Positions 2,402 through 23,498 of a DNA stretch of 64,000 bases are shown here, one piece after another. Each line of letters begins with the position of its first letter. The first letter of the stretch is position 1. Location: positions 4,596,205 to 4,660,204 of the forward strand of contig CP070811.1 of assembly GCA_020343875.1 (NCBI GenBank). Reading direction: 5' to 3'. This stretch comes from Anaerolineales bacterium. GTDB taxonomy: Bacteria > Chloroflexota > Anaerolineae > 4572-78 > NAK82. The notes under the pieces were generated by a model. That model worked only from the letters and a program-made list of their open reading frames with translations. It searched no databases and was not told where the DNA came from. The position numbers and the translations under genes were made by a program.

Positions 2402-3285
2402 TGGCGTTGCGTTGCCCGCGTTGCCGAAGTCCTATCCATAGCGAATGGGGGATGTGCCCGGCCTGTGGCCTTTCGCGCCCCAGCAGCCGGAGCAGGGTAA
2501 GATGTCGCAGTTGCGGGGCACAGGCGGATAGCCTCTACCATGTGTGCCCAACTTGTGGGTCTGACCTGGAAGCAGTTCCGTTACTACTCTGGTTTCTAAG
2601 AGGGAGCCTACAAATCGCCAAGGTCGGCGGCAGTGCACTTTTGGTGGGGGGTATGGTATTCGGTGCGATGCAGGTCAAGACAGGTGTGGAACGGGGTGCC
2701 AACCAAGTCATAACGTTCTTTATGCCTACCCCGACGCCCACGGCGACTGCCACTGGCACGCCGACGGCTACCCGGGCACCAACGCCCACGCCCACTGTAA
2801 CATCTACGTGGACGCCTCTGCCTACCTTGACGGCTACACCCACGGCCACGCCAACCGAAACCTTAGTGCCCACTTTGGCCCTGCCCGCGACAGCCACTCC
2901 CAGCCCGACTGCCTCTCCCACGCCGACGCCGCGCTTCGTGGCTCCGGTGCTGATCGATCCTCCTGACGGCCAGGTTTTTGTGGGCAGCGACCAGTTGGTT
3001 ATTCTGAGTTGGGAGCCGGCTGGGCAGCTGGCTGAAGACGAGTGGTATGCGATACGAATTTCGTGGTCCCAGGATGGTACGTTTGGCCAGCGAGGTGGCA
3101 ATAATTTGAAAGAGATCTGGTGGCGAATCCCGGCTGATTTCTACTGGGGCAAAGCTGATCAGGATACGGGACGTGCCTATGAATGGTATGTTTACGTTGA
3201 GCAAGTGACGGAGACAGAGGACGGTCAGCGGGTCGGGGAGCCTGTCAGCCCTCTGAGCGAGACTCGGACCCTCTATTGGCAGTGA
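2401..3285 (+). CDS. Double zinc-ribbon membrane protein with Thr/Pro-rich linker and extracellular domain
   Basis: A 294-residue protein of unrecognised function. Two CxxC...CxxC zinc ribbons lie at the N-terminus (Cys 5, 8, 19, 22 and 35, 38, 49, 52). A single hydrophobic segment follows at about 72-95, then a long linker of alternating Thr and Pro (about 110-180), then a C-terminal domain with a Trp-rich beta pattern resembling Ig/fibronectin-like modules. The topology would put zinc ribbons in the cytoplasm and the linker and domain outside. The ATG overlaps the rseP stop codon, so the two are translationally coupled. The Thr/Pro linker resembles those in the subtilase at 7856 and the GH3 protein at 43254. 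Confidence 0.8.
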   Translation: MALRCPRCRSPIHSEWGMCPACGLSRPSSRSRVRCRSCGAQADSLYHVCPTCGSDLEAVPLLLWFLRGSLQIAKVGGSALLVGGMVFGAMQVKTGVERGANQVITFFMPTPTPTATATGTPTATRAPTPTPTVTSTWTPLPTLTATPTATPTETLVPTLALPATATPSPTASPTPTPRFVAPVLIDPPDGQVFVGSDQLVILSWEPAGQLAEDEWYAIRISWSQDGTFGQRGGNNLKEIWWRIPADFYWGKADQDTGRAYEWYVYVEQVTETEDGQRVGEPVSPLSETRTLYWQ

Positions 3286-3299
3286 CCGGTGAGAAAAGG

Positions 3300-4244
3300 A
3301 TGGAATACGAGCAGGTACTTCTGCACGTTGGCAATAGTGGTGAACGCCTGAATACCCGGCATCTGTACGCACTCTCAGGCATGAACCGTGAAGAGCTTGC
3401 GCTCTTCCAAAGTGTGTGGCCGAACATCGAAGCCAGTCGCCGCCGGCTGGTGATGCGCAACCTGGTAGAACTAGCGGAACACAGCTTTGAGGTCAACTTC
3501 GACCCCATCTTTTTGCTGGCGATGGGGGACGAAGATAGCGAGGTTCGAATGGCGGCCGTTGATGGGTTATGGGAGAATGAAGATCAGGCCCTCATCGGTC
3601 CACTGGTTCACTTGCTGCGTGCGGATGAATCGCCTGGCGTGCGTGCTTCGGCCGCTATGGCCCTGGGGCGCTTCGTTTTGTTGGGCGAGCTTGAGGAAAT
3701 TGACCGTGCTCCTGCTATGTTGGCTGAAGAAGCATTGCTGGAAGCACTTCGCCAGGCGGGCGAGGAAGTAGAGGTGCGTCGCCGGGCCATCGAGTCCATT
3801 GGCTATTCCAGTGCCAGTGGCGTGCGTGAAATCATCGAGGCCGCCTATTATGACGATGACGAAAGGATGCAGTCCAGTGCTCTGTTTGCCATGGGCCGCA
3901 GCGTCGACCCCTATTGGTACAAGTTGCTCTACCAGGAGCTGGACAACCCCAATCCAGAACTGCGTTTCGAGGCGGCCCGAGCCTGTGGCGAGCTGGAAGC
4001 CCCTTTGGCAGTATCCCGACTGGCCCGGATGTCTCTTGATGATCCAGACCGGGAGGTTCAAGAAGCTGCGGTATGGGCACTGGGGCGCATTGGTGGCCGT
4101 GAGGCCCGCGAAGCTCTGGAAGCCTGCTGCGAGAGCGAAGACGAAGCCCTGAGTGAGGCAGCTGCCGAGGCCCTGGATGAGATGGACCTACTCGGTGAAG
4201 GTGTAGATATTTCACTTTTCGGCGATTCCGACGAATACGAATAG
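3300..4244 (+). CDS. HEAT-repeat protein
   Basis: A protein of 314 residues made of tandem alpha-helical repeats. Repeats of the type DEDSEVRMAAVDGLW, ESPGVRASAAMALGRF, PNPELRFEAARACGEL and DPDREVQEAAVWALGRIG are visible along most of its length. HEAT/PBS-lyase-like repeats usually mediate protein-protein contacts, and no catalytic motif is seen. I prefer the ATG at 3300 with GGTGAG upstream; a TTG at 3276 would overlap the preceding gene. The strongly acidic C-terminus is unusual but not diagnostic. It lies in the same run of genes as rseP and may share its promoter. Confidence 0.85.
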   Translation: MEYEQVLLHVGNSGERLNTRHLYALSGMNREELALFQSVWPNIEASRRRLVMRNLVELAEHSFEVNFDPIFLLAMGDEDSEVRMAAVDGLWENEDQALIGPLVHLLRADESPGVRASAAMALGRFVLLGELEEIDRAPAMLAEEALLEALRQAGEEVEVRRRAIESIGYSSASGVREIIEAAYYDDDERMQSSALFAMGRSVDPYWYKLLYQELDNPNPELRFEAARACGELEAPLAVSRLARMSLDDPDREVQEAAVWALGRIGGREAREALEACCESEDEALSEAAAEALDEMDLLGEGVDISLFGDSDEYE

Positions 4245-4287
4245 GCACTATGACCTCTTCCCCCCCTTCAACAACCTGCCTGGTCCT

Positions 4288-5196
4288 ATGACATCCTTCC
4301 TCTCGGTTGCATACAACGTCCTTGGCCCCATTTTCCTGGTTACCGGGCTGGCTGTGCTGATTGATCGGCGCTTTGCCCCTGACCCACGAGCTTTCTCGCG
4401 AGTTGCCGTTTATCTGTTTGCCCCTTGCCTTGTCTTTGGCGGCATTGCAAGCTCAAACCTGCAGGCCAAGGAGTTGGGGCTGCTGGTGGCTGTGGCGGCT
4501 CTCTCGTCGGTGCTGATGGCCCTATTGGGCTGGGGCTTGGCCCGCCTCTTCCGATTCGAACGCAAGCTCGAAAGCGCCTTTGTGCTGAGCGTGGTTCTGG
4601 TCAATGCTGGAAATTATGGTCTTCCCCTGAATGAGTTTGCCTTTGGGGAAGCTGGTTTTCAGCGGGCCATTGTCTTTTTTGTGATGACAGCTATTGTGTC
4701 CAACACGCTAGGCGTCTACCTGGCCTCACGCGGTCAGGCCTCGATCCAGCGATCCATATTGAATGTGGTCAGGGTCCCGCTGCCTTACGCGGCTGCACTG
4801 GGGCTATTGTTTAACATAAAGAATGTGGTGTTGCCCTTGCCGGTGGACCGGGCGGTGACTCTATTGGGTCAGGCAGCGGTGCCATGTATGCTGCTCATCT
4901 TGGGATTGCAGCTTTCGCGAACATCAGTGAAGGGTCGTTGGGGACCCATTCTGTTGGCCACGGTCATTCGGCTGGCGATCGGGCCGCTGATTGCATTTGC
5001 CCTAGTCACTCTGCTTGGCCTATCTGGGCTGGCGCGGCAGGTGGCCATCGTCCAGGCCAGCATGCCGACTGCTGTGATGGGGGGTGTGCTGGCCACCGAA
5101 TTTGGTAGCGACGCCGAGTTTACGACAGCCGTCATCCTGATTAGCACGCTGGCGAGCATCGTTACCCTAAGCATTTTGCTGTCCCTGGTGATGTAG
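4288..5196 (+). CDS. AEC (auxin efflux carrier) family transporter
   Basis: A 302-residue integral membrane protein with about ten hydrophobic segments arranged in two halves, typical of the AEC/Mem_trans family (YfdV/MdcF relatives). Characteristic elements are the N-terminal NVLGPIFLVTGLAVLIDRR, the FAPCLVFGGIASS region and the mid-protein NAGNYGLPLNEFAFG motif. Members export or exchange small organic acids. The substrate cannot be read from the sequence. It lies 43 bases after the HEAT-repeat gene on the same strand and may belong to that transcript. Confidence 0.9.
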   Translation: MTSFLSVAYNVLGPIFLVTGLAVLIDRRFAPDPRAFSRVAVYLFAPCLVFGGIASSNLQAKELGLLVAVAALSSVLMALLGWGLARLFRFERKLESAFVLSVVLVNAGNYGLPLNEFAFGEAGFQRAIVFFVMTAIVSNTLGVYLASRGQASIQRSILNVVRVPLPYAAALGLLFNIKNVVLPLPVDRAVTLLGQAAVPCMLLILGLQLSRTSVKGRWGPILLATVIRLAIGPLIAFALVTLLGLSGLARQVAIVQASMPTAVMGGVLATEFGSDAEFTTAVILISTLASIVTLSILLSLVM

Positions 5197-7715: not shown

Positions 7716-7855
7716 ACGCTACTTAGTACCCCTGCTGAAGAGGTTTTCGGGTATTGGAGGCACACTATGCCAGGCTGTTTTTACTCTAGAAATCTATGGA
7801 ACGGGGCATTAGTTGACAGAATCCCACTGGGCAGAGCAAGATGAGGAGGGGTATT

Positions 7856-10060
7856 ATGAAAAATGTACATCCCCGAGCTATGTGCAGCCAGCGAGTGCTA
7901 ATCATGGTCGCTTTGGCCTTGGCGATGATCATTTCCAGCGCCTGTACAAGGGCCAGACCTCTGGCCCGCCAGGTGGAGCAGGGGCAGGCTGTCCCTGGAG
8001 CCGTACAATCTACGCCTGTGATCGCACCATCTATCCCCACGGCCACCTCTACACCCATCCCGCCGCCTGAGTTTCTCTCGGAGGCGGCTAGAATCATCGG
8101 CGATGAACCCAATATGGTGCTGGGCCAGGTCATTGTCAAGCTCAACGAGCAACCTGGCGTCCAGGCTCTGGATGCCAGGGCAGAAACTGACGGTATTATT
8201 GCAACTGGCCTGGAAGGGGTTGATCAGCTCAACCAGCAATTCAAGGTCGACGCCTTCGAACCGCTGATTGGACCATTGGCGCAGGCAGCGGGTGAAGGTG
8301 TTCAGGCCTTTGCGGCCCGTCAGCCAAAGCTGGCAGGCCTATATGTGGCAAAGTTTGACCCCCAGCTCGACCCCAATGCCGTGGCATCAGCATATGCCGC
8401 CGATGAGGATGTGGCTTACGCAGAACCCAACTTCTACGCCTATGCCAGCGATGGGCCCACAGCGCCATTGGCCTTGACACCCAACGACCCTTATTTCAGT
8501 TTTCAGTGGCACATGCCTCTTATCCAGGCAGCCCAGGCCTGGGATGTGTCTACGGGGCAGGATGTGTTGGTGGCTGTGCTCGACACGGGCATCGCCTACG
8601 AGGATTTTGAGAGTTATCGGCGGGCTCCGGACCTGTCCAACACACGCTTCACCCCAGGTTACGATTTCGTCAACAAAGACCCCCACGCAAACGACGATGA
8701 AGGCCACGGCACCCATATAGCAGGAACTATCGCCCAGAGTACCAACAACGGCCAGGGTGTGAGTGGCGTGGCATTTGGTGCTACGCTGATGCCGGTCAAA
8801 GTGCTTGATGGGCGAGGGCAGGGAAGCTACGACAGCATTGCCCAGGGTATCGTTTACGCCGCTGACCGAGGCGCGCGAGTCATCAATTTGAGTCTGAGTG
8901 GGCGTGGCAGCTCCAGTGCGCTGACCGAAGCAGTGGATTATGCTGTGCAAAAAGGAGTGCTGATTGTATCGGCTGCCGGCAATAGCGGTGGGTGGGTGGA
9001 ATATCCGGCCGCCTACGAGAATGTGTTGGCCGTTGGATCGGTGGGCTTCAATCGGGCCCGGGTGGATTACAGTAACTTTGGCCTTGAGCTTGACTTGGTG
9101 GCTCCGGGTGGCGACACTGACGTGGATTTGAATCAGGATGGTTATCCCGATGGCATTCTTCAGGAGACCTTCCGGGACGACGCTACGAAGTTTGGCTTTT
9201 ATCTTTACGAGGGGACTTCAATGGCAGCGGCGCACGTTTCTGGGGTAGCTGCGCTACTTTTTGGCCGCAACCCAGGGGCTACGGCCACCCAGGTACGTGA
9301 GGCTATGCAAAATACCGCCTTTGACCTGGGACCAGCTGGGCGCGACAATGAGTATGGAAACGGGTTAGTGTTGGCGGCGGACGCGCTGGCCGCCATTGGA
9401 GGGCCGCCAATCACGCCTACGCCCACGTCAACCTCCACCCCCATTCCAGGCCCATCGCCCACGCCTAGCGCCACCTCCACATCCGGCCCAGGCCCGTCAC
9501 CCACGCCCACCACGACTTCTACGCCGGGCCCTGGCCCGTCGCCCACGCCGACTATCACCCCTTCTCCGAGCGCGACGTCGGCTCCGACCACCGAGAATCT
9601 CATCGTCAACGGTGATTTCGAGACGGACGCTGGCTGGACCTTTGGCGTCACCCGCCACCCGGCTGGCTACAGTACCGCAGTCGTCCATGGCGGCGCTCGG
9701 GCCGCACGCCTGGGCATTGTGGATGGGGTGGATCGCTATAGTTTTTCCTCCATCTGGCAAGTGGTCACCATACCTGCCGACGCCCGGCGCGCAACTCTAA
9801 ATTACTGGGTATATCCGCTGAGTGACGACGTCTTCCCGTCAGACCTGCAATTGGTGCTGGTGCTGAACGAGCAGTTCCGGGTCGTTAACTATGTTGAGAA
9901 TTCGCTTTCGGACTCACGGCAGTGGAGGCAAGGCAGCTACGATATGACACCCTTCGCCGGCAAAAAGGTGTATGTCTACTTTGGTGTTGTCAACCGAGGA
10001 TACGGCAGCCTGACCAGTGCTATGTATGTGGACGATGTTTCGTTGACCGTTGAGCGGTAG
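7856..10060 (+). CDS. Secreted subtilisin-family (S8) serine protease lipoprotein with Thr/Pro linker
   Basis: A 734-residue protein starting at the ATG at 7856, which follows GAGGAGGGG. A signal segment ends in a lipobox-like ISSAC. A propeptide spans about residues 60-180, resembling the fervidolysin-type fold (QVIVKLNE...YAEPNFYAY). The S8 domain has Asp about 243 (AVLDTGIA), His about 284 (GHGTHIAGT) and Ser about 455 (GTSMAAAHVSG). A Thr/Pro/Ser linker (about 520-580) leads to a C-terminal beta-sandwich (NLIVNGDFETDAGW) of carbohydrate-binding type. It probably acts as a surface-anchored or shed protease. A strong hairpin follows at 10098. Confidence 0.93.
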   Translation: MKNVHPRAMCSQRVLIMVALALAMIISSACTRARPLARQVEQGQAVPGAVQSTPVIAPSIPTATSTPIPPPEFLSEAARIIGDEPNMVLGQVIVKLNEQPGVQALDARAETDGIIATGLEGVDQLNQQFKVDAFEPLIGPLAQAAGEGVQAFAARQPKLAGLYVAKFDPQLDPNAVASAYAADEDVAYAEPNFYAYASDGPTAPLALTPNDPYFSFQWHMPLIQAAQAWDVSTGQDVLVAVLDTGIAYEDFESYRRAPDLSNTRFTPGYDFVNKDPHANDDEGHGTHIAGTIAQSTNNGQGVSGVAFGATLMPVKVLDGRGQGSYDSIAQGIVYAADRGARVINLSLSGRGSSSALTEAVDYAVQKGVLIVSAAGNSGGWVEYPAAYENVLAVGSVGFNRARVDYSNFGLELDLVAPGGDTDVDLNQDGYPDGILQETFRDDATKFGFYLYEGTSMAAAHVSGVAALLFGRNPGATATQVREAMQNTAFDLGPAGRDNEYGNGLVLAADALAAIGGPPITPTPTSTSTPIPGPSPTPSATSTSGPGPSPTPTTTSTPGPGPSPTPTITPSPSATSAPTTENLIVNGDFETDAGWTFGVTRHPAGYSTAVVHGGARAARLGIVDGVDRYSFSSIWQVVTIPADARRATLNYWVYPLSDDVFPSDLQLVLVLNEQFRVVNYVENSLSDSRQWRQGSYDMTPFAGKKVYVYFGVVNRGYGSLTSAMYVDDVSLTVER

Positions 10061-10175: not shown

Positions 10176-10577
10176 TCAAACAACTTGCTTTTCGGAAAAG
10201 CCTGGATTCTTTTGGGGCAGGTGATCGACGCTGGTGATAATGCGGGGCCAGACGTTGTCATCGGCGTTCGAGGCAAAGGGCTTAGGCGGGTCATCTTTGA
10301 GGGTGGACTGGCTGCCGGTCGTACGCCAGGCCCACGCACCAACCGTTATCAAGATGAGAAGCGCCAGGACCCCAGCGAATGCCACATAATAGGGTAGCAG
10401 GCCATCCACCAGGGCCAGAAGCACCTCTGCTTCAGATCTGCCGTGTGGTGCAGACGTGGTCAGTTGCCTGTCCAGGAGGCGGTTCATGAGCAGCAACATA
10501 ACGCATCCACCCAGGACAAAGGCGTCCATAATCAGCAGAAGGTTGAACACGGGAACGGGCTTCTTTTTGAAGACCAT
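10176..10577 (-). CDS. Small two-segment membrane protein, paralogue of 11674-12099
   Basis: A protein of 133 residues that I do not recognise. It has a basic start (MVFKKKPVPVF) and two hydrophobic segments (about 8-31 and 56-80), with conserved NRLLD between them and a polar tail. It aligns clearly with the gene at 11674: both share K-K-x-x-x-x-x-x-LLxxxDAxVLGG, a following NRLLDxQL and a second segment ending in a Trp. I choose the ATG at 10577, which has GGGAG upstream and matches the paralogue's start. A GTG at 10664 overlapping the preceding stop (GTGA) is the alternative. It is the last gene of a leftward four-gene cluster with two lipoproteins. Confidence 0.7.
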   Translation of the reverse strand: MVFKKKPVPVFNLLLIMDAFVLGGCVMLLLMNRLLDRQLTTSAPHGRSEAEVLLALVDGLLPYYVAFAGVLALLILITVGAWAWRTTGSQSTLKDDPPKPFASNADDNVWPRIITSVDHLPQKNPGFSEKQVV

Positions 10578-10660
10578 ATCGATTTCTCCCAATAACTCTT
10601 TTCCAGGACCCGATTGGAAAGGCCCAGCCAATAGCCTGTCTCGAACGGTATCGCTGTCGC

Positions 10661-11044
10661 TCACCGGATTCCGGTGTCGATCTCCACATCCATACGGGTG
10701 GCTTGCTGGCTGAGGATTTCTATCGTTTGCGGCAGGCCAATCCCATGGTCAATGCCTATGTGGTTGATGTCCACAATATAAGTACCAACTGGCAATGTAA
10801 GCTGGTAGTTGCCATTGGCATCAATCGGAGCCCGGGCGACCTCGCTTCGGCCATTCCGAGCATAAATCACAATCTCTCGTGCGGCATAGACCTCAGGTGC
10901 TGGGGTCGGATCGGGTACCCCTTCTCTTGAGACCGGCGATAGAGGTCCAATGGTGACATGACCTTCAAGCGTACCTGTTTCTCGAGGCAGGGCGGTGCAG
11001 GCTGTGAGGAGTATGGCTGCTGCTACGAGCAAAAGTCTTCTCAT
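10661..11044 (-). CDS. Small lipoprotein with carboxypeptidase-regulatory-like (Ig-type) fold
   Basis: A 127-residue protein with a short signal peptide and lipobox LLTAC (Cys at residue 16). The mature part has the pattern TLEGHVTIGPLSPV...VIYARNGRSEVARAPIDANGNYQLTLPVGTYIVDI, typical of carboxypeptidase-regulatory-like or SpaA-type beta sandwiches that act as rigid surface modules. No catalytic residues are visible. AGGTGAGC precedes the ATG. It sits between two other putative exported or membrane proteins and is likely co-transcribed with them. Confidence 0.75.
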   Translation of the reverse strand: MRRLLLVAAAILLTACTALPRETGTLEGHVTIGPLSPVSREGVPDPTPAPEVYAAREIVIYARNGRSEVARAPIDANGNYQLTLPVGTYIVDINHIGIDHGIGLPQTIEILSQQATRMDVEIDTGIR

Positions 11045-11060: not shown

Positions 11061-11594
11061 CTATGGCTGAGTGGTCGTGTCGTTGATGAAGCTGGCTAGA
11101 TCAGGGTCGCTTCTGGCGAAAGCCAGGCAGCTTTCACGGTTAGGTTGAACGTCTGATAGATTCCGGAATAGCTGCCTGACTTCGGTCTGGTCATTCTTTG
11201 TAGTGATGATGAATAGTGTACCCTTAGAAAGATCGTAGCCGGTATTGTCGATCATGAACTGTGCCGTCTTTCCGTCGGACGTCTGCAGTTCCCAGTCGAC
11301 ACGCCGTCCGTCCTGAGTCTCTGCATAGCTCTTAAGCTCATAAACGGGGCTTGCTGTGGAGCCCGAGCCACTGCTCATGTAAGCCGCGATAGCATCGTGC
11401 CAGATCATGAGCGCCAATCCTTCTTCCCATCGATAAAACGCATAGCCCGCTTGCTCAATTGCACCGGCGGTTGTATCTGGGCCAGGGGGAGTGGACTTGG
11501 GTGAGCAGGCGCTGAAGGTTGCCAAGAGCAGGGCTATCAGCAAAACAGTTGGCTTTTTCGACTGAGATTTTGGAATGTCGTTTCTCTTCTGCAT
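11061..11594 (-). CDS. Lipoprotein of unknown function
   Basis: A 177-residue protein with a basic N-terminus, a hydrophobic stretch (VLLIALLLATF) and a lipobox-like FSAC at about residue 30. The mature part is predicted soluble, with mixed alpha/beta character, and contains WEEGLALMIWHDAIAAY and a conserved-looking DGRRVDWELQTSDGKTAQF strand region. I do not recognise a family. It lies 16 bases upstream of the carboxypeptidase-like lipoprotein gene on the same strand. The Shine-Dalgarno is weak. Confidence 0.7.
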   Translation of the reverse strand: MQKRNDIPKSQSKKPTVLLIALLLATFSACSPKSTPPGPDTTAGAIEQAGYAFYRWEEGLALMIWHDAIAAYMSSGSGSTASPVYELKSYAETQDGRRVDWELQTSDGKTAQFMIDNTGYDLSKGTLFIITTKNDQTEVRQLFRNLSDVQPNRESCLAFARSDPDLASFINDTTTQP

Positions 11595-11652: not shown

Positions 11653-11691
11653 TCAATCCCCCGCCGTCAGCAATCAGCCCGGGGGGATTGA
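11653..11691 (-). terminator. Inverted repeat at the end of the paralogous membrane protein gene
   Basis: TCAATCCCCC (11653-11662) and GGGGGATTGA (11682-11691) are perfect 10-bp arms around a 19-base loop. The right arm lies within the last codons of the 11674-12099 gene. There is no T-run, so it may be a partial terminator or a processing hairpin in the cluster transcript. Confidence 0.45.
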
Positions 11692-12099
11692 CAACGGTGT
11701 GGTATCAGGTACTGCGGTTGGTGTTGGCGTCTGCGGCTTTATGAGCGGGGGCTTCGAGCGCAGACTGACTGCCCGCCATAATCCTACACCGATGATCAAC
11801 GCGAAGATCAGTGGAACTGCATAACGAAGGCGTGAGTTGGTCTTTCCCCATAGCCATACGCAGATGGTTACCAAGACGAGAGCCACCAAGGCCCCGGCGT
11901 AGACCACAAAGTAGATTAGGAGGTGGTCCATGAGATTTAGAATTGTGTCTGCTGCAACCATGTTGCGCGGCGCGTAGTCGTTCAGCTGAACGTCTAGGAG
12001 ACGATTGACGAATAGCAGGGCGATGAATCCCCCCAGCACAAGGGCATCCAGTATCAATAGAATAGTCAGAGTGGAAATACGTTTCTTGTTGAAGGTCAT
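11674..12099 (-). CDS. Small membrane protein, paralogue of 10176-10577
   Basis: A protein of 141 residues. The ATG at 12099 has AAAGG upstream. There are three hydrophobic segments (about 8-30, 55-80 and 88-105), then a short Pro/Thr-rich tail (KPQTPTPTAVPDTTP). The first two segments and the connecting NRLLDVQLNDYAPRN are clearly related to the gene at 10176. The third segment and the tail are extra. The function is unknown. Two paralogues bracketing two lipoprotein genes suggests duplication of an older membrane-protein/lipoprotein unit. Confidence 0.7.
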   Translation of the reverse strand: MTFNKKRISTLTILLILDALVLGGFIALLFVNRLLDVQLNDYAPRNMVAADTILNLMDHLLIYFVVYAGALVALVLVTICVWLWGKTNSRLRYAVPLIFALIIGVGLWRAVSLRSKPPLIKPQTPTPTAVPDTTPLSIPPG

Positions 12100-12228
12100 C
12101 TTTGCCTTTCTGAGACAATCTCTATTTGGGCCAACCACTATGTTCCTAACGTGATTGCTTTGTGATGCGGGACGGCGGCGAAATGCAAGCGCCCCACGCA
12201 TCACATCGGAAACAAGTCGCGCAAACTA

Positions 12229-13468: not shown

Positions 13469-16400
13469 TCAGGGGCGGGGCACAACCCGCAGAATGACCA
13501 ACCCCTGTTCAAGGGTGGCAAGATAGATATAGTCACCGGCCACCGCGATGCCACCCACCCGCCCGGCTGGGTTGTAGCTGGCAACTTCAGTGGGCGCAGC
13601 AGGCTCCGACAGGTCCACAATGCGCAAGATGCCTTGCTGGTCAATGAAGTAGATGTGACCATTGGCAGCCATTTCTAGCCGGTTCACCCCAGGGCCTTCC
13701 GGCTGATAGAGACCCACCCCTACAGGATTGGCCGAGCTGGACACGTCGACCACCTGGATCCCCCAAAGGGCACCTGTATCGGCATCGCCAGACCATTGAA
13801 TGAGAAGATAGACTCGACCGTCGGCTGCTATGACTTGCCGAATACTGCCTGGCTGCAAATCTGGAAAGAGACCGACTTCTGTGGGCGCAGCCGGGTTTGA
13901 AAGGTCTAGAATCTGCAACACAAACTGGCCCAAGGGTAGGTACGCATGGCCGTCTGCCACAAAAACGTCCCCTTGCCACCCGGGCGCCTGGTAAAGCCCG
14001 GCCTGGGTGGGCCGGACAGGATCTGATATGTCCAGCAGCAAAATGCCTTGCTCCGTGCCCACGTAAAGCGTATCGTTAAATACCGATATGGGACCGAACT
14101 GTTGCGGGAGGTCGTAGAAACCAAGCTCAACCGGAGCTGCTGGGTTCGAAACGTCCACCACCTTCAAGTTCCTGTCTACGTCCAGAACGTAAGCCAAAGC
14201 TTCTGTGGAAGCGGTTGTCGTGTCTGACGTGGGGTGGCCCACGACAGCCCGGATCTGTCCTTGGAGGTTAAGGAATCCGGCCTGGCTGGGGGCAGTGGGG
14301 TCAGAGATGTCTATCACCCAAATTTCTGGCACCGAATACGGATCATAGAGATAGGCGTAGCTGCCTATTATGGCAATCCTGTGAGCCGGCAAACCTGCAT
14401 CCGAATGGATGTAGCTGCCGATGTAGGCAGGTTGGGAAGGATTGGAGACATCCAGAATTTGCAGGCTATTGGGTCCAGCTAGCAGGTAAGCGTAAACTCC
14501 TGTGGCATGGGGCGAACCATCTGGCGCAGGGCCATCCGCTATTGCGACTTCCCTGATGTATTCTGCGGTTTCATAAGCACCGACTTCGGCCAGGGTGGTG
14601 GGATTTGAAGTATTGACTATCCGCAGCTTGCCTCCCACCAGCAAATAGGCATAGCCATCCCTGACCGCTGCTACCTTTTGCATGTCGTTCTCGGGCGCCT
14701 CATAGAAGCCAAGTTCAAGAGGGCTGGTCGGGTTTGATAAGTCTACGACCTGCAATCCACGACCGCCAGCGTTGTAGTAAACATAGCCGTCCGCCAGCAG
14801 CATGGTTGGGTCATAAGCCATGCGGAAGAAGCCCAGCTCGATAGGGGAGGCAGGGTCTGACAGATCAACTTCTTGCAGCCCTTCCAAGTATCTGCCGATG
14901 TAGGCGTGGCCAGCAGCGAAGTTCACATCCAGAACGTTGCCAATGCTGGTGGATTTGAAGAAGCCCACTTCCTCAGGTCCAGTAGGCTTCAGCAGGTCAA
15001 TAATCTGTATACCGGCCTCCCCTGTCACATAGGCATGACCATCCACGACGGCCAGGATGCGTTGCCCTTCGCGGGGTGCATACGACCTAAGCTCAGTAGG
15101 TGCGAGCGGGTCCGAAACATCTATTACGCGCACGCCTTCCTGCTCATCTCCCAGGAAGAGATACTCATCATGCTGTCCCCAGATGTGACTTGAAGCCTGC
15201 TGGGCGTGCAAGCCGAGTGGGATTGGATCAGCCGGATTTGTGATATCTACTACCTGCAGTCCCTGGCTCTGGTTAACCAGGTATACATAGTCACCAGCCA
15301 CGGCTATGTCTCTGACATCAAGCAGGCCTGGCGGGCTGTAGAAGCTGATTTCCGACGGAGCGACCGGATTAGATATATCCACGATGCGCAGCCCTGGCGA
15401 TTGGATGGTTTGGAGGATGTAGGCGTACTCGTTAACGATGGTCTCAATCACAGACCCCCATTTGCCGCGTGCGATCTCGATGGGGTTGGCCGGGTCGGCG
15501 ATATCCAAGATGTAGAGGTCATCTGCGTACAGGTAGTCTCCCACCAGTTCGATGCTCCAAATTGGCTGATCGTACTGGGCAATTTCGCGAGGGGCACTGG
15601 GATTCGAGACGTCGAGGATCTGTAATTGGCCATCGCAGCCACTGTCCATATCGCAATGCGCTTGCGCGACGTAGGCGTAGCTGTCTCTGACTGCTACTTC
15701 CCTGGCCCAGGTCTGTAGTTCATGGAGGGCAATTTCAGCCGGAGCCGTCGGATCAGTTACATCCAAGATGCGAAGACTCCCGCTACATTCGACGCCCAGA
15801 CTGGCGGCGGCCTGGCACGTGTGTCGTTCAGCCAGGTAGGCATAGGCCCGCTCCGAGTCAGTGACCAAGGCTACATTTGAGGGTTGCCCGCCTGTTTGCT
15901 GCACGCCAAGGATAGAGGGCAGAGCTGGATTTGAAAGGTCCAACACCAGCAACCCGCCAGTCTCGAAGGTATCAGCGTAGGTCACGTAAGCGTAAACCTG
16001 GTCTGACCCTAATTGGGCGTCAGGCATGGTTACGTCGGTGACCGAGCCCGCGAGTTGGTAGGAGCCGGCGATGGCCGGGGCAGTTGGGTCCCTAATATCG
16101 ATGATATGTAGGCTGTGGCCGGTGCCAATGTAAGCGTAGTCGCCCCAGCTATGAATGGCTGTGAGCTGGCTTGGAAGCAACAACTCGCCAGTCAACGTAG
16201 GAAGCATTGGATCGGAAATATCCAGAACCATTAGCTTGAGGCCTACACCCAGATAGGCGTGGCTACCCCGGATGAAGGCCGTGGTGATTTGGCCTCCCAA
16301 CTGGCTCACCAGTTCGACGTTATGAGCATCGAATACCTCGGACGAAGACGACGCCAACGTGGACGTTGGCGAAGTTGCACGGCCTTCCCTAGCAACAAAG

Positions 16401-17644
16401 ACCAGGGTCCGTCCGTCGCCTGTTTCGAGCCAGAGTTGGTTGCCACGGATGCGGTGGACGGTCGCATTGGCCAGATATTCCAGATAGCGTTGTTCCTGCT
16501 GCATGATGTCCGCTGGCTCAGCACAGGCCATCTCCGTGGCACTAGGGGCCTCAATGCGGAGGGAGGGTCCGTCAACGGAATAGGCGGCTCCGTAGGTGTT
16601 GCACCCTGCCGAACCGCTCACCGTGGCGTCCTCAAATACGGCTGTGATTTCTGTCCCGGCCAATACATCCAGGGGTATCAGGGTGGGTGTGTCCATATTT
16701 TCGACCCTTTTCTCCTGGATGAAGGTGATCAACTCCCAGGTGATTCCCTCCAGGCTGGATTGGACATCTGCCGGCAATGGTTCAAATAGGAGCGTCTCAC
16801 CCCGAGCCGTGAAAAGTTCAAGCTGGCTGGGGCTTAAGCGATAATCAGTCGCCAATTCGAGTTGGGTGGTGTACTCGCCTTCCTGCACCAATAGCGCTTC
16901 CGAGCAGGGCTCGGATGGCCCAATCATGGCAAGTATAGGGAACCTGATGTCGTCACCGCTGGCTTGGTAGGCGCCAATGTACCCCCTGCATCCCGCCTGT
17001 CCATTAATCTTGCTGCCCTGCTCAAAGGCGATCGTAATGGTTGAGCCCTCAAGGGGGCTGCCGCCATTCACTGAGAGAAGCTGCCACTTGGAGCCCAGCA
17101 GGTGATTGGGGTCCATCGGGAATTCTTCTTTCGCGGCGAAGATTAGAATGGTCTGGCCCAAGGTATTCTCTATCTCCAGGCGGCTCCCTGCAATGTGATA
17201 GGCGGTGGCGCTCTGCAGGGCTTCCAGGTAGGACGATTCTTGATCCATCACACCCTCCGGCCCGTCACAAAGCTGCAACTGCACAGCGATCTCTGGAATT
17301 GATAGAGTGCCTTGGTCAGCTACGGCGTATTCGCCGCTGTAGCCGTTACAGCCTGCAAACCCGCCCGCCGACTCTGCAGTAAAGCTCAGGGTGATATTGG
17401 AGTTGGGTACGAGACCATGCCCGTTCAAGGAAATGAGCACCCACTCAGTTTCGTCCAGGTCGATCGGCTGGTCGACCCATTGGGCCCCAGTGCTCTGTGG
17501 TTCGGCTGTCTCACCCATGCTCCAGGTTACAGGGGTGCGTGTCGCTGACTGTGCTGTGCCAGAGTCAGGTCTTTGAACTGCGCAGGCAGCCAGAGCCAGA
17601 GCCAATGTGCCTATGCCTAGAGTAACCGCCTTTATCCGATGCAT
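13469..17644 (-). CDS. Giant lipoprotein with three META domains and about twenty LVIVD repeats
   Basis: A protein of 1391 residues. The start is the ATG at 17644 with GGGAGG upstream; longer frames would overlap the LLM gene. A lipobox ALAAC anchors it. Three META/HslJ-like domains come first (about 40-150, 155-270 and 280-410), each with a G-C-N/R-G/T-Y core (AGCNGYSG, AGCRGYIG, AGCNTYGA). From about residue 430 to the end I count 20 LVIVD repeats of the type VDLSNPAAPTEVG, spaced about 43-55 residues apart, predicted to form beta-propeller-like surfaces. The function is unknown; large ligand- or wall-binding surface protein is an inference. The META-plus-LVIVD combination is unusual. Confidence 0.9.
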   Translation of the reverse strand: MHRIKAVTLGIGTLALALAACAVQRPDSGTAQSATRTPVTWSMGETAEPQSTGAQWVDQPIDLDETEWVLISLNGHGLVPNSNITLSFTAESAGGFAGCNGYSGEYAVADQGTLSIPEIAVQLQLCDGPEGVMDQESSYLEALQSATAYHIAGSRLEIENTLGQTILIFAAKEEFPMDPNHLLGSKWQLLSVNGGSPLEGSTITIAFEQGSKINGQAGCRGYIGAYQASGDDIRFPILAMIGPSEPCSEALLVQEGEYTTQLELATDYRLSPSQLELFTARGETLLFEPLPADVQSSLEGITWELITFIQEKRVENMDTPTLIPLDVLAGTEITAVFEDATVSGSAGCNTYGAAYSVDGPSLRIEAPSATEMACAEPADIMQQEQRYLEYLANATVHRIRGNQLWLETGDGRTLVFVAREGRATSPTSTLASSSSEVFDAHNVELVSQLGGQITTAFIRGSHAYLGVGLKLMVLDISDPMLPTLTGELLLPSQLTAIHSWGDYAYIGTGHSLHIIDIRDPTAPAIAGSYQLAGSVTDVTMPDAQLGSDQVYAYVTYADTFETGGLLVLDLSNPALPSILGVQQTGGQPSNVALVTDSERAYAYLAERHTCQAAASLGVECSGSLRILDVTDPTAPAEIALHELQTWAREVAVRDSYAYVAQAHCDMDSGCDGQLQILDVSNPSAPREIAQYDQPIWSIELVGDYLYADDLYILDIADPANPIEIARGKWGSVIETIVNEYAYILQTIQSPGLRIVDISNPVAPSEISFYSPPGLLDVRDIAVAGDYVYLVNQSQGLQVVDITNPADPIPLGLHAQQASSHIWGQHDEYLFLGDEQEGVRVIDVSDPLAPTELRSYAPREGQRILAVVDGHAYVTGEAGIQIIDLLKPTGPEEVGFFKSTSIGNVLDVNFAAGHAYIGRYLEGLQEVDLSDPASPIELGFFRMAYDPTMLLADGYVYYNAGGRGLQVVDLSNPTSPLELGFYEAPENDMQKVAAVRDGYAYLLVGGKLRIVNTSNPTTLAEVGAYETAEYIREVAIADGPAPDGSPHATGVYAYLLAGPNSLQILDVSNPSQPAYIGSYIHSDAGLPAHRIAIIGSYAYLYDPYSVPEIWVIDISDPTAPSQAGFLNLQGQIRAVVGHPTSDTTTASTEALAYVLDVDRNLKVVDVSNPAAPVELGFYDLPQQFGPISVFNDTLYVGTEQGILLLDISDPVRPTQAGLYQAPGWQGDVFVADGHAYLPLGQFVLQILDLSNPAAPTEVGLFPDLQPGSIRQVIAADGRVYLLIQWSGDADTGALWGIQVVDVSSSANPVGVGLYQPEGPGVNRLEMAANGHIYFIDQQGILRIVDLSEPAAPTEVASYNPAGRVGGIAVAGDYIYLATLEQGLVILRVVPRP

Positions 17645-17741
17645 TTGCTCATCCTCCCAGCGGAACAGAAACGTGATCATGGTTCTAGGACGCCCCGGGC
17701 CTGCAAACGGTTCCCAAAAGGGGATGCCGCAGCTCGGTAAT

Positions 17742-19462: not shown

Positions 19463-19831
19463 TTATTCTTTATCCTGGTCTGAGATGGCTTCCAGTAGTT
19501 GCTCGGACGGGCATCCTTTCAGCAGGAAGCTATCCGCGCCAGCAGCCAAAGCATTGTCCCGATACTGGTAACCCATGCTCAGAGCAACGACTTTGACATG
19601 TGGCCATCTGCTTTTGATGAGGCGAGTGGCTGCTATGCCATCCAGCTTTGGCATGTGCATGTCCATCAAGACCACATCAGGCCGGGATTCCTCCACGAAC
19701 TGCGTGGCTTCCTGTCCATTGCTTGCCTCGCAGACTACCTCGACTGTTGACCAGCAGGACAGCAGGGCCCTCAACCCGTCGCGAGCACGAGGGCGATCAT
19801 CGGCGATCAAGACTTGGATGCGTGGCTTCAT
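19463..19831 (-). CDS. Single-domain response regulator (receiver only)
   Basis: A protein of 122 residues from the ATG at 19831, consisting of one CheY-like receiver domain and no output domain. The acidic pair (ADDRP) and phospho-acceptor Asp (VVLMDMHMPKLDG, residue about 55) are present, followed by the Ser of VVALSMG in the usual Thr/Ser position and the Lys of SFLLKGC. It may relay phosphate or be a truncated NarL-type regulator; the frame ends where the linker would begin. It lies 239 bases from the NarL/kinase pair at 20070-23407. Confidence 0.85.
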   Translation of the reverse strand: MKPRIQVLIADDRPRARDGLRALLSCWSTVEVVCEASNGQEATQFVEESRPDVVLMDMHMPKLDGIAATRLIKSRWPHVKVVALSMGYQYRDNALAAGADSFLLKGCPSEQLLEAISDQDKE

Positions 19832-20069
19832 GGTTTTCTCTCTTCCGGTATGCATAGAACGGGAATCTATATCGTGTTCAGAGCCTCAAACTCTTGCCTT
19901 TCTATTCAGCATCGCATGCAGTGTACCAGGGACGGAGAATTCTGTCATCAGACGGACGTCGATTCGCTTTACGCAAAAAGACCACCCTTTAGGCGGCCCT
20001 TTCTACGTAGCTTGTATGGGATTTGTACAACAAATGTTGTGTTTCAGGCTAAAGCGGCCCCATTTGACC

Positions 20070-20753
20070 TCAACCCGAGCCTTGGCCTGACACCTTTTCA
20101 TCGTCATCCAGCGACGCCAATCCTTCCCGCAAGGCGTATAAAGCAGCCTGGGTTCGGCTGGCCAGGTGCAATTTGCTCAGGATGTTACTGACGTGGGTAC
20201 GCACCGTCGTCTCGCCGATCACCAACTTTTCAGCAATCTCCCGGTTTTCAATTCCTTGGGCTACCAGTTGTAGTACTTCCAATTCTCGTTGAGTCAGTGG
20301 GTCAGGCGTTGGCGGCGCCTGTGATGGGCGGGATAGCTCCTGCAATACTTTCCTGGCGATGGTCGGGTGCAGCGATGACTCACCGCGATACACCTGGCGG
20401 ATGGCATCCATCAGTTCGTTGGGGCTGGAGTCTTTCAGGTGATAGCCTAGCGCACCAGCTTTGATAGCAGGGAATATCTTGTCCTCGCCGGCAAAGGTGG
20501 TGAGGACAAGAATGCGTGCTTCTGGCTGATGGTTCTTGATGCGACGGATAGCTTCAATGCCGTCCACCTGGGGCATCATCAGGTCCATCAGGACGACATC
20601 AGGTTGGAGTCTCTCCGTTTCCGCCACCGCTTCTTCGCCGTTGGTAGCTTCCCCAATCACCTCGATGTCAGGCACCACCTCTAGCACAGCTCGGATCCCT
20701 TTTCGGATGATGGCGTGATCGTCTGACACTAAGATGCGGATTGTATCGGTCAT
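20070..20753 (-). CDS. NarL/LuxR-type response regulator
   Basis: A 227-residue two-domain regulator. The receiver domain (1-122) has SDDHA, the acceptor Asp in DVVLMDLMMPQVDG (about residue 56), Thr in VLTTF and Lys in YHLKDSS. The LuxR-type helix-turn-helix (about 150-215) reads LTQRELEVLQLVAQG...TVRTHVSNILSKL. It overlaps the stop of the upstream kinase gene by four bases (ATGA), so the two are translationally coupled and form a cognate pair. Targets are unknown. Confidence 0.95.
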   Translation of the reverse strand: MTDTIRILVSDDHAIIRKGIRAVLEVVPDIEVIGEATNGEEAVAETERLQPDVVLMDLMMPQVDGIEAIRRIKNHQPEARILVLTTFAGEDKIFPAIKAGALGYHLKDSSPNELMDAIRQVYRGESSLHPTIARKVLQELSRPSQAPPTPDPLTQRELEVLQLVAQGIENREIAEKLVIGETTVRTHVSNILSKLHLASRTQAALYALREGLASLDDDEKVSGQGSG

Positions 20754-23407
20754 GCAGACACCTCCACCTGCACTCGCGTCCCTTCTCGTAGTTTTGCGTG
20801 GATCGTCAGCTGTCCCCCCAGCTCTGCAGCCCGCTCGTGCATAGCAGCCAACCCCAGTCCGCCCCGCTCTCGGGCAGTCACGGGATCAAAACCTACGCCG
20901 TCGTCGGCGATTTCCAGCGTCACGATTTGTGCATCCTGGTGCAGGGATAACCTGATGTTGCGGGCATCGGCGTGTTTGAGGGCATTATTCAGCGCCTCTT
21001 GAGCGATGCGATACAGTCCTTCCTCAGTTTCAGGTTGCAGCCGGATTTCGCCGTCTACTTTGAACTCTGTGTTCAGTCCCAACCTTCCCTCGACGGCCAG
21101 CAAGCGGGCCTGCAAGGCGGCCACCAATCCCTCCTCCTCTAGCACAGGCGGACGCAACTCATAGACCAGCAAGCGCATCTCCATCAAGGCTTCTCGGGCG
21201 GTGTCCTGCAACTGACTGAGATGCCTAGCGACGCGATCTAAGGCCCCCAATGAGAGTTGCCCTGCCGCTGCCTCAGAGTACAGCGCCATACCATACAGGG
21301 ACTGGGTCACCGAGTCATGTAGGTCCCGCGCCAGGCGCTGACGTTCCTCCATCACCGCCAACTGCTGGGCCTGCCGGTAGAGGCGGGCATTCTCGATAGC
21401 CACCGACATCTGGTTGGCCAGGGATTGAAGCACCACGACATCTCGCTCGTTGAAAGCATCTAGCTGGTCACTCTCGATATTGAGCACGGCGATAACCTTT
21501 CCTTTGGCTGTGATGGGTACCGCCAGTTCTAAACGGGTCTCGCTCTCACCTAGCTGGACGTAGCGTGGCTCCTGGTGCACATCCGTCGTCAAGAAATGTT
21601 GGCCGCTGCTGGCGGACCAGTCGGTGATTCCTGGCTGCCTGGTCTTGGGCTGAATAGCCTCATGCACGCCTTCCCAATCTCGGGCAGCCGTTGTCAATGT
21701 GACTACCTGGTCACCTTCAATAAGTCCGAATTCCACCCGATAGTAACCGAATGTCTCCTGGATCATTTTGGCTATCTGGTTCAGTAGTTCATCAATATCC
21801 AGGATGGAGGTCATGCGGCGTCCCACCTCATTGATGAGGCGGAATTGCTCTGCCTGTCTCTGCTCGGCCTCGAAGAGGCGTGCGTTTTCGATGGCCATGG
21901 CGGCCTGGGTGGCCAGGGACTGGAGCACCACCGTATCGCTCTGGTCAAAGGCGTCTAGTTGGATACTTTCCACATTCAGCACACCGATGACGGTATCCTT
22001 CGTCTTGAGAGGTACGGCCAATTCAGACTGAGATGGGGGTGACACCGGCGTGGGGACGAAGCGCGGCTCTTGGCTGACGTCGGGCACCAGGAGCGGTCGG
22101 CCAGTGCTGGCTACCCAACCGGTGACCCCATCTCTACCCACCTTAAGGCGCATATGCCGACCCTCCAGGGATTCCCAGCCGGGCCCGAGCGCCGCTTTGA
22201 AAACGAGGTCGTTGCCTTCGATGAGGCCAATGCTAACCCTGTGGTATCCCATAGTCGCCTGTATCAACTGGATCATCTGCTTCAGCAGCTCATCAACGGC
22301 CAGGATAGCAGTGAGACGGCGTCCGACCTCATTAATGAGGGAGACTTGCTCAGTTTGCTTCTGCTTGTCCTCGAAGAGGCGAGCGTTTTCGATGGCCATC
22401 GCAGCCTGGTTGGCCAGGGATTGAAGCACCACCACGTCATTGTCATCGAAGGCATCCAAACGCCTGCTCTGAATATCAAGAACGCCGATGACCTTATCCT
22501 TGGTTCTCAAGGGAACGGCCAACTCAGAGCGGGTTTCGGTGATCTGCGGCACGTGGTAATAGTTTGGTTCCTGAGTCACGTCGGGCGCCAACAGGGGCTG
22601 ACCAGTGCCGGCTACCCGGCCGACAATGCCCTCTTGGCCTATCCTGAAGCTCAAAGGTTGGCGGCTGGTTTCCCAGTATGGGCCAGCCCCGGTCTTTATA
22701 ATCACTTCATCGCCCACAATCAGGCCGATGCCAACCAGGTAGTACCCCAGAATCTCTCTCACCCGACGTACGATTTCTTTCAGCAACTGGTCAACATCGA
22801 GGATGGAGATGATTTGACGGCCGACCTCGCTAATCGCTCGAAATTGCTCTGCTCGCCGTTTCTCGGCCTCAAAGAGTCCTGCGTTCTCGACGGCTACACC
22901 AACCTGGTGCCCGATGTAGGTCAGCAACTGGACGTCCGGGTTGGCAAACTGGCGATAGCCGCGGCTCACAGTGAATAGCCTGCCGAGTACCTTCCCCTTT
23001 GAACTCAGAGGGGCACTGACCAGGGAGCGAAAACCTTCTTCGTGGGCGGCTATTCCGCTCAGGCGTTGATGGGTGGAGATGTCCCTAACTACCAGGGGCT
23101 GGCCAAACTTGGCAACGTGTCCGGAGAACCCTTCCTCCAGCTGCAGTTCGTGTAGTTGCTTGATAGACTCGGGCTTAAGCCCGCGATGAATGGCAATGGT
23201 TATTGCGCCGGTTTCTTGATCCAGTAGATACACGCCCCCAGCATCGGTATCTAGGACCTCCAGTGTCTTTTCCAGGGCGTCGTTCAGGATCTCTTGCAGG
23301 TCCAAGGAGCGGCTGGCGACCGCAGCAATGGCATTGAGAGCGGCCAGTTCTTTGGTTGGGTCGGTCCCCCTCTTTTCCAGGGGAGTATATGACTCAGTCA
23401 TCGTCAT
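20750..23407 (-). CDS. Four-GAF soluble histidine kinase (NarX/DesK type)
   Basis: A protein of 885 residues from the ATG at 23407 (GGGGG upstream; other starts lie within 7 codons). It has four GAF domains in tandem (about 20-170, 190-340, 360-515 and 535-685). GAF 2, 3 and 4 share the pattern ELLxQ/K...LIEGDxV...SELAVPLxTKxKVIGVL, which indicates internal duplication. A HisKA_3 dimerisation domain follows, with the phosphorylated His in LARDLHDSVTQ, and a HATPase domain (NNALKHADA, DDGVGFD, GLGLAAM). No membrane segments are seen, so the signal is cytoplasmic, possibly small molecules or redox. It is coupled to the regulator gene at 20070. Confidence 0.94.
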   Translation of the reverse strand: MTMTESYTPLEKRGTDPTKELAALNAIAAVASRSLDLQEILNDALEKTLEVLDTDAGGVYLLDQETGAITIAIHRGLKPESIKQLHELQLEEGFSGHVAKFGQPLVVRDISTHQRLSGIAAHEEGFRSLVSAPLSSKGKVLGRLFTVSRGYRQFANPDVQLLTYIGHQVGVAVENAGLFEAEKRRAEQFRAISEVGRQIISILDVDQLLKEIVRRVREILGYYLVGIGLIVGDEVIIKTGAGPYWETSRQPLSFRIGQEGIVGRVAGTGQPLLAPDVTQEPNYYHVPQITETRSELAVPLRTKDKVIGVLDIQSRRLDAFDDNDVVVLQSLANQAAMAIENARLFEDKQKQTEQVSLINEVGRRLTAILAVDELLKQMIQLIQATMGYHRVSIGLIEGNDLVFKAALGPGWESLEGRHMRLKVGRDGVTGWVASTGRPLLVPDVSQEPRFVPTPVSPPSQSELAVPLKTKDTVIGVLNVESIQLDAFDQSDTVVLQSLATQAAMAIENARLFEAEQRQAEQFRLINEVGRRMTSILDIDELLNQIAKMIQETFGYYRVEFGLIEGDQVVTLTTAARDWEGVHEAIQPKTRQPGITDWSASSGQHFLTTDVHQEPRYVQLGESETRLELAVPITAKGKVIAVLNIESDQLDAFNERDVVVLQSLANQMSVAIENARLYRQAQQLAVMEERQRLARDLHDSVTQSLYGMALYSEAAAGQLSLGALDRVARHLSQLQDTAREALMEMRLLVYELRPPVLEEEGLVAALQARLLAVEGRLGLNTEFKVDGEIRLQPETEEGLYRIAQEALNNALKHADARNIRLSLHQDAQIVTLEIADDGVGFDPVTARERGGLGLAAMHERAAELGGQLTIHAKLREGTRVQVEVSA

Positions 23408-23469
23408 ATCTTTTCCCCCAACTGGGGTGAGTACCGGTTCGGTTGGGAGTCTAAGGGCTAGGCGCCTCA

Positions 23470-23498
23470 ATCATATCACGGCTCACTTATACGCGCAA
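23470..23498 (-). promoter_or_regulatory. Possible promoter for the four-GAF kinase operon
   Basis: On the minus strand, TTGCGC (23498-23493) and TATGAT (23475-23470) are separated by 17 bases. They lie 63 bases upstream of the chosen kinase start. The -35 is weak. Confidence 0.4.

Follow-up and report, generated by a model that had tools for sequence, protein, structure and literature searches.

In a 64,000-nucleotide stretch of the genome of an Anaerolineales bacterium (positions 4,596,205 to 4,660,204 of contig CP070811.1, referred to here as the window), we describe a gene whose product, a predicted lipoprotein, carries three META domains followed by 21 LVIVD units, a combination of two known, ordinary families that is so far singular. 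The gene is genuine and looks intact. Its product is better described as three META domains and 21 units, the latter probably arranged as three propellers, than as a repeat array that has grown recently. A sequence-only reading of the window had placed the gene correctly at 13469-17644 and given the right product length of 1391 residues; the coding strand is the minus strand, on which the open reading frame (ORF) extends from 17779 to 13469, with a likely ATG start at 17644 and a stop codon at 13469-13471. The features of the gene are as follows.

13469..17644, minus strand: META-LVIVD lipoprotein gene, 1391 amino acids (ORF list and Pfam)
17653..17658, minus strand: likely ribosome-binding site, GGGAGG (from reading the sequence)
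17582..17644, minus strand: signal peptide with lipobox LAAC, residues 1-21, ending in Cys21 (by inspection)
17120..17467, minus strand: META domain 1, residues 60-175, Cys99/Cys126 (Pfam; boundaries by profile)
16769..17110, minus strand: META domain 2, residues 179-292, Cys219/Cys247 (Pfam; boundaries by profile)
16382..16756, minus strand: META domain 3, residues 297-421, Cys348/Cys374 (Pfam; boundaries by profile)
16337..16381, minus strand: Ser/Thr-rich linker joining the META and LVIVD halves, residues 422-436 (from sequence)
15362..16336, minus strand: LVIVD units 1-7, proposed propeller A, residues 437-761 (fold extrapolated from units 8-14)
14432..15361, minus strand: LVIVD units 8-14, predicted propeller B, residues 762-1071 (AlphaFold2 model)
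13472..14431, minus strand: LVIVD units 15-21, proposed propeller C, residues 1072-1391 (33% identity to propeller B)

Both halves of the protein are recognised by Pfam, with three META stretches (PF03724) scoring 182.1 bits against a cut-off of 24, and 18 tandem LVIVD stretches (PF08309) scoring 323.4 bits against a cut-off of 20.2. A repeat profile made from this one protein, and hence biased towards it where Pfam is not, finds 20 units between residues about 459 and 1374, and a 21st unit (GLVILRVVPRP) that closes the chain is recognised by a profile of homologues' C-terminal caps. Together, these matches put the original estimate of three META domains and about twenty LVIVD repeats far above chance. 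The META profile matches the solved structures 2la7 and 2kts (HslJ), and by homology the META part is predicted to adopt the small HslJ-type barrel fold. Each META domain has a conserved cysteine pair, the six residues making up the three expected pairs, and Cys-paired inserts in LVIVD units 4 and 5 contain four more, a cysteine content in keeping with export; Cys21 of the lipobox would be the lipidated residue.

The units of the LVIVD array were initially described as closely similar between neighbours, and the array as a probable product of internal duplication. The first claim is wrong and the second is not supported: identity averages 30% between neighbouring units versus 29% for other pairs, with a maximum of 47% for any pair, and neighbours do not resemble each other more than distant units do, apart from a similarity score marginally above that of shuffled order (permutation p about 0.04). 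A seven-unit period gave no signal when unit i was compared with units i+7 and i+14 (p 0.59 and 0.73), so that any duplication of whole propellers is untraceable. At the DNA level, Tandem Repeats Finder reported no array in the LVIVD part, its sole report being a run of 17 bases where the signal peptide is encoded, and a direct-repeat search of the array returned matches of only 22-44 bases at 60-81% identity, most of them falling on the conserved motif. By contrast, an LVIVD gene in a genome of another family (G081) contains 161-base DNA copies, spaced mostly by 126 bases or a multiple thereof. The low identity of its units and the scarcity of DNA repeats, unlike the situation in G081, mark the array as old and diverged, and the near-equal identities together with the absence of a tandem DNA repeat spanning the array give no support to recent internal duplication.

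The LVIVD repeat was described in 2004 (PMC2447325), predicted to form a propeller by Adindla and colleagues in 2007 (cited in PMC3192720), and modelled as a propeller on template 4jsn_B in 2021 (PMC8078820). AlphaFold2 prediction of the whole 961-residue LVIVD region from the single sequence reached a pLDDT of 40.2. A search of viral contigs for LVIVD relatives that might deepen the alignment found none. The model of units 8-14, for which units 15-21 served as a second alignment row, reached a pLDDT of 85.5 and a pTM of 0.83, with 28 strands in seven sets of four, although a chain cut to exactly seven units is biased towards closing at seven. Foldseek matches this model to propellers of the WD40 and G-beta kinds, but also to two proteins with eight blades, the designed Tako8 and BamB. 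With VIA-align, the PALB2 WD40 domain scored Z 23.9 and the Sphingobium phosphotriesterase structure 5hrm Z 23.8, the latter over 298 aligned residues at 3.0 A and with the best coverage among the matches listed; the top Z values differ by under 1, and all 987 of the 987 aligned chains have Z of at least 8. Units 8-14 are thus confidently modelled as a seven-bladed beta-propeller, and all 21 units probably form three such propellers, the folds of units 1-7 and 15-21 being proposed from their sequences. The sequence-only reading had named separate, unrelated folds as grounds against its proposal, and this applies in part, in that the predicted META barrel (by homology) and LVIVD propeller (by model) are two unrelated folds, here joined in one chain.

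The size of the array fits whole seven-unit propellers. Among 38 distinct LVIVD ORFs bounded by stops in the loci examined, counting profile hits plus one unit for each missing period plus the terminal unit, 14 units were found in 26 ORFs, 7 in three, and 21 in one, the META-LVIVD gene; the remaining eight had counts of 13 (five), 12 (two), or 8 (one), some of them probably because units were missed. When the set is restricted to the 32 ORFs with at most one filled gap, 14 units occur in 21, 7 in three, 21 in one, 13 in four, 12 in two, and 8 in one. The final counts use a widened rule for the last unit, a stricter version of which had given the META-LVIVD protein 20 units.

Independently of this counting rule, the ends of the array were compared with 14 profiles, one for each position in 19 fourteen-unit homologues, among them a second, separate LVIVD protein encoded in the same genome. 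Unit 1 is of the N-terminal cap type, scoring 54.3 bits with the position-1 profile and 17.8 with the next best, and unit 21 is of the C-terminal cap type, with 48.0 bits for position 14 and 34.7 for the next. In cross-validation, positions 1 and 14 were each classified correctly in 19 of 19 cases, and these account for 38 of the 78 correct assignments among 266 over all positions; because the inner position profiles are mostly poor, they do not resolve which inner seven units are extra. With both end caps matched, a full LVIVD array is present, seven units above the usual 14, and a whole LVIVD protein thus seems to have been fused behind a three-META lipoprotein.

The suggestion that this architecture is unusual was borne out. 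A search with the whole protein matched 35 of 61 genomes (its own and 60 relatives), and in the loci examined all matches outside its own genome were to META or LVIVD on different ORFs. META was found in 41 (E <= 1e-20) and LVIVD in 51 (E <= 1e-25) of 396 genomes of the class, and only the gene's own genome has both in one ORF, a count that leaves room for cases hidden by the thresholds, by flanks of 1.5 kb, by broken-off contigs, or by genomes that are incomplete. The 225 loci examined yielded seven ORFs with both domains, all of them pieces of the META-LVIVD gene itself. The remaining six genomes of its family, four of which are only 63-82% complete, gave no match for either half at the same thresholds. 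In named genomes, none of the 80 loci examined out of 173 related to META included an LVIVD ORF, and a scan with the whole protein produced 14 pattern matches and no relatives. In the limited paper collection searched, no paper combined a META domain with a beta-propeller, or a META domain with a lipoprotein and Chloroflexi.

Separate versions of the two halves can be recognised in relatives. The genome G037 (a contig of MAG TumbabinsA95) encodes a lone 403-residue three-META lipoprotein with a lipobox, 46% identical to the META-LVIVD protein and colinear with it over residues 32-420, but ending after the third META domain without LVIVD. Stand-alone LVIVD proteins are common: in a survey of 150 genomes of the class, LVIVD was found in 53 (E <= 1e-15, its own genome included) and META in 48 (E <= 1e-7), and judged by eye among the matches listed, its own genome and G081 are the only ones with the two less than 20 kb apart. 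In G081, an LVIVD gene (718-2676), the gene of an unrelated lipoprotein (about 2693-3382), and a four-META lipoprotein gene (3482-5035) lie in a row on one strand.

META domains of the class have a range of other partners. Among 64 distinct META ORFs (META-LVIVD included), the joined domains were SH3_3 in seven, SBP_bac_3 in five, LysM in three, PD40 in two, and LVIVD, WD40, and PKD in one each. Three of the 64 are propeller fusions: META-LVIVD, the G362 protein, in which a lipobox and two META domains are followed by WD40 (best matches spanning residues about 430-950), and the G368 protein, with a lipobox, two META domains, SH3_3, and then PD40. A META protein of G392 has C-terminal SPDG-like motifs but no Pfam propeller match and was not counted. 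After G037 and G081, the nearest relatives of META domains 1 and 2 are the META pairs of G085 and G052 (52% and 46% identity), both preceded by a zf-HC2 anti-sigma-type zinc finger and, from reading of the sequence, a membrane helix; the ORF directly upstream in G085 encodes an ECF sigma factor, with Sigma70_r2 and r4_2 above cut-off.

Compared with known systems, the META half resembles the META/HslJ family in its three above-cut-off domains and conserved cysteine pairs, whereas HslJ has a single domain and META-LVIVD has three in tandem, behind a lipobox and fused to predicted propellers. The other half shares with LVIVD surface proteins the repeat sequence, secretion, and a whole array with both end caps, yet typical members in the class have 14 units behind their own signal peptide and META-LVIVD has 21 behind META. 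The G362 and G368 proteins share with it a META tandem behind a lipobox and then beta-propeller repeats, although these propellers are of other families, the META domains are two, and SH3_3 intervenes in G368. Leishmania META2 (PMC3270026) is likewise a larger protein with three META domains at one of its ends, but is eukaryotic and has a calpain-like domain instead of propellers.

The gene lies, as first proposed, in a cluster of genes for exported proteins: reading of the N-termini shows lipoboxes in the subtilase (7841-10060) and in two small proteins (10661-11044 and 11061-11594), and a signal peptide in the PA14-SH3 protein. The neighbouring small lipoprotein is found in only two of 150 genomes, one being its own; it is thus not conserved, and the neighbourhood of the gene gives no hint of function. 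A neighbour shared with G081 was considered and rejected, as the small lipoproteins there and here are not homologous and the one beside the META-LVIVD gene is nearly unique.

Propellers mostly bind partners. Members of the META fold group (HslJ, MxiM, ToxS, VtrC, and META1) are described as periplasmic chaperones or stabilisers, of which MxiM binds lipid and ToxS binds bile salt (PMC13042144, PMC3270026), and HslJ protects Acinetobacter baumannii from peroxide (PMC11724541). Taking these chaperone roles together with partner-binding propellers, we lean, by a little, towards the protein being a secreted, lipid-anchored scaffold formed by fusion of a tandem-META (HslJ-like) lipoprotein, as its N-terminal half, with a whole, mature LVIVD propeller protein, as its C-terminal half. 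The META domains would lie next to the membrane, where they may act as chaperone-like or ligand-sensing modules in the manner of the HslJ/MxiM/ToxS fold group, and the three propellers would project outwards and may have proteins or glycans as binding partners. We propose no enzymatic activity. By analogy, the role is probably that of a surface binding or chaperone scaffold.

Second to the scaffold, and doubtful in our judgement, is a reading as an envelope sensor, the input side of a signalling system: META would detect a ligand or damage to the envelope, and the propellers would pass the signal on to a partner. The zinc finger and membrane helix ahead of the META pairs in G085 and G052, the sigma factor gene upstream in G085, and bile salt binding by ToxS (PMC13042144) point this way, but META-LVIVD has a lipobox, no cytoplasmic part, and, by Pfam scan, no zf-HC2 zinc finger, and no sigma or anti-sigma gene is among the neighbours scanned. 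Hydrolysis of a small molecule by the LVIVD propellers, as in the Sphingobium phosphotriesterase (haloalkylphosphorus hydrolase), is highly unlikely; 5hrm is the only enzyme matched by the LVIVD sequence profile (E 3.5e-10) besides being the best-covered structural match among those listed, yet its match in sequence comes from short LVIVD-like segments, its Z is tied with those of non-enzymes, and all propellers score alike.

For a protein known from one genome only, one might suspect that two neighbouring genes were merged through loss of a stop by an error of assembly or sequencing, the more so as G081 has a META gene and an LVIVD gene close together. Such a merger is nevertheless the least credible of the explanations, since the reading frame is uninterrupted across the junction between the third META domain and LVIVD, GC and GC3 are level along the whole gene (GC3 0.64 and 0.65), and the META-first order is opposite to that in G081. 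Moreover, the LVIVD half lacks a separate signal peptide, the stand-alone LVIVD ORFs whose starts were read begin with one, and a single base error would not remove a signal peptide.

A broader conjecture, which we rate as improbable, is that tandem META is an exchangeable front end of the Anaerolineae, independently joined to LVIVD, WD40, and PD40 propellers, wall-binding domains, and anti-sigma factors; META-LVIVD, on this view, would serve as a holdase or sensor at the surface, with three META barrels that bind lipid or peptide feeding a docking tower of three propellers, MxiM-like and BamB-like in one chain. Setting this conjecture aside, META-LVIVD joins two families of poorly known function in a new way. 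LVIVD arrays in the class mostly have a unit number divisible by seven (30 of the 38 complete ORFs), as expected of whole propellers, and the links of META pairs to ECF anti-sigma factors and to propellers in relatives provide testable hints to the roles of META domains outside model bacteria.

The LVIVD array of the 1391-residue lipoprotein carries inserts with paired cysteines and also DxDxG-like loops at residues 665 and 1287, the latter being possible calcium sites.

Window 15630-15820 (-), residues 610-671: LVIVD units 4 and 5, inserts with paired cysteines
Window 13772-13786 (-), residues 1287-1291: DxDxG-like loop

The same genome encodes a second LVIVD protein (G000:C1:2752707-2754497, locus L005), an ORF of 876 residues that joins a staphylococcal-nuclease domain to 14 LVIVD units.

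Near the lipoprotein gene, two small membrane proteins with 39% identity over the 138 residues compared are the product of a local duplication, and two small lipoprotein genes lie between them.

Window 10176-10664 (-): small membrane protein 1
Window 11674-12204 (-): small membrane protein 2

Elsewhere in the window, a histidine kinase with four GAF domains (20750-23470, -) is accompanied by response-regulator-like ORFs (20070-20753 and 19463-19855), and a 793-residue ORF (56627-59008, +) with no Pfam match at 1e-5 immediately follows the gene of a 999-residue membrane protein matching PTPS_related/PMT_2.

META domains also occur in other architectures of the class, with NlpE-like and DUF4377 domains or with the solute-binding domain SBP_bac_3 (L245:2221-4818; L242:422-3079, loci in other genomes). 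On contig C26 of the relative G085, the ORF of an ECF sigma factor overlaps that of a putative anti-sigma factor, whose outer portion META would form.

L148:655-1254: ECF sigma factor
L148:1251-3344: zinc-finger, membrane-helix and double-META protein
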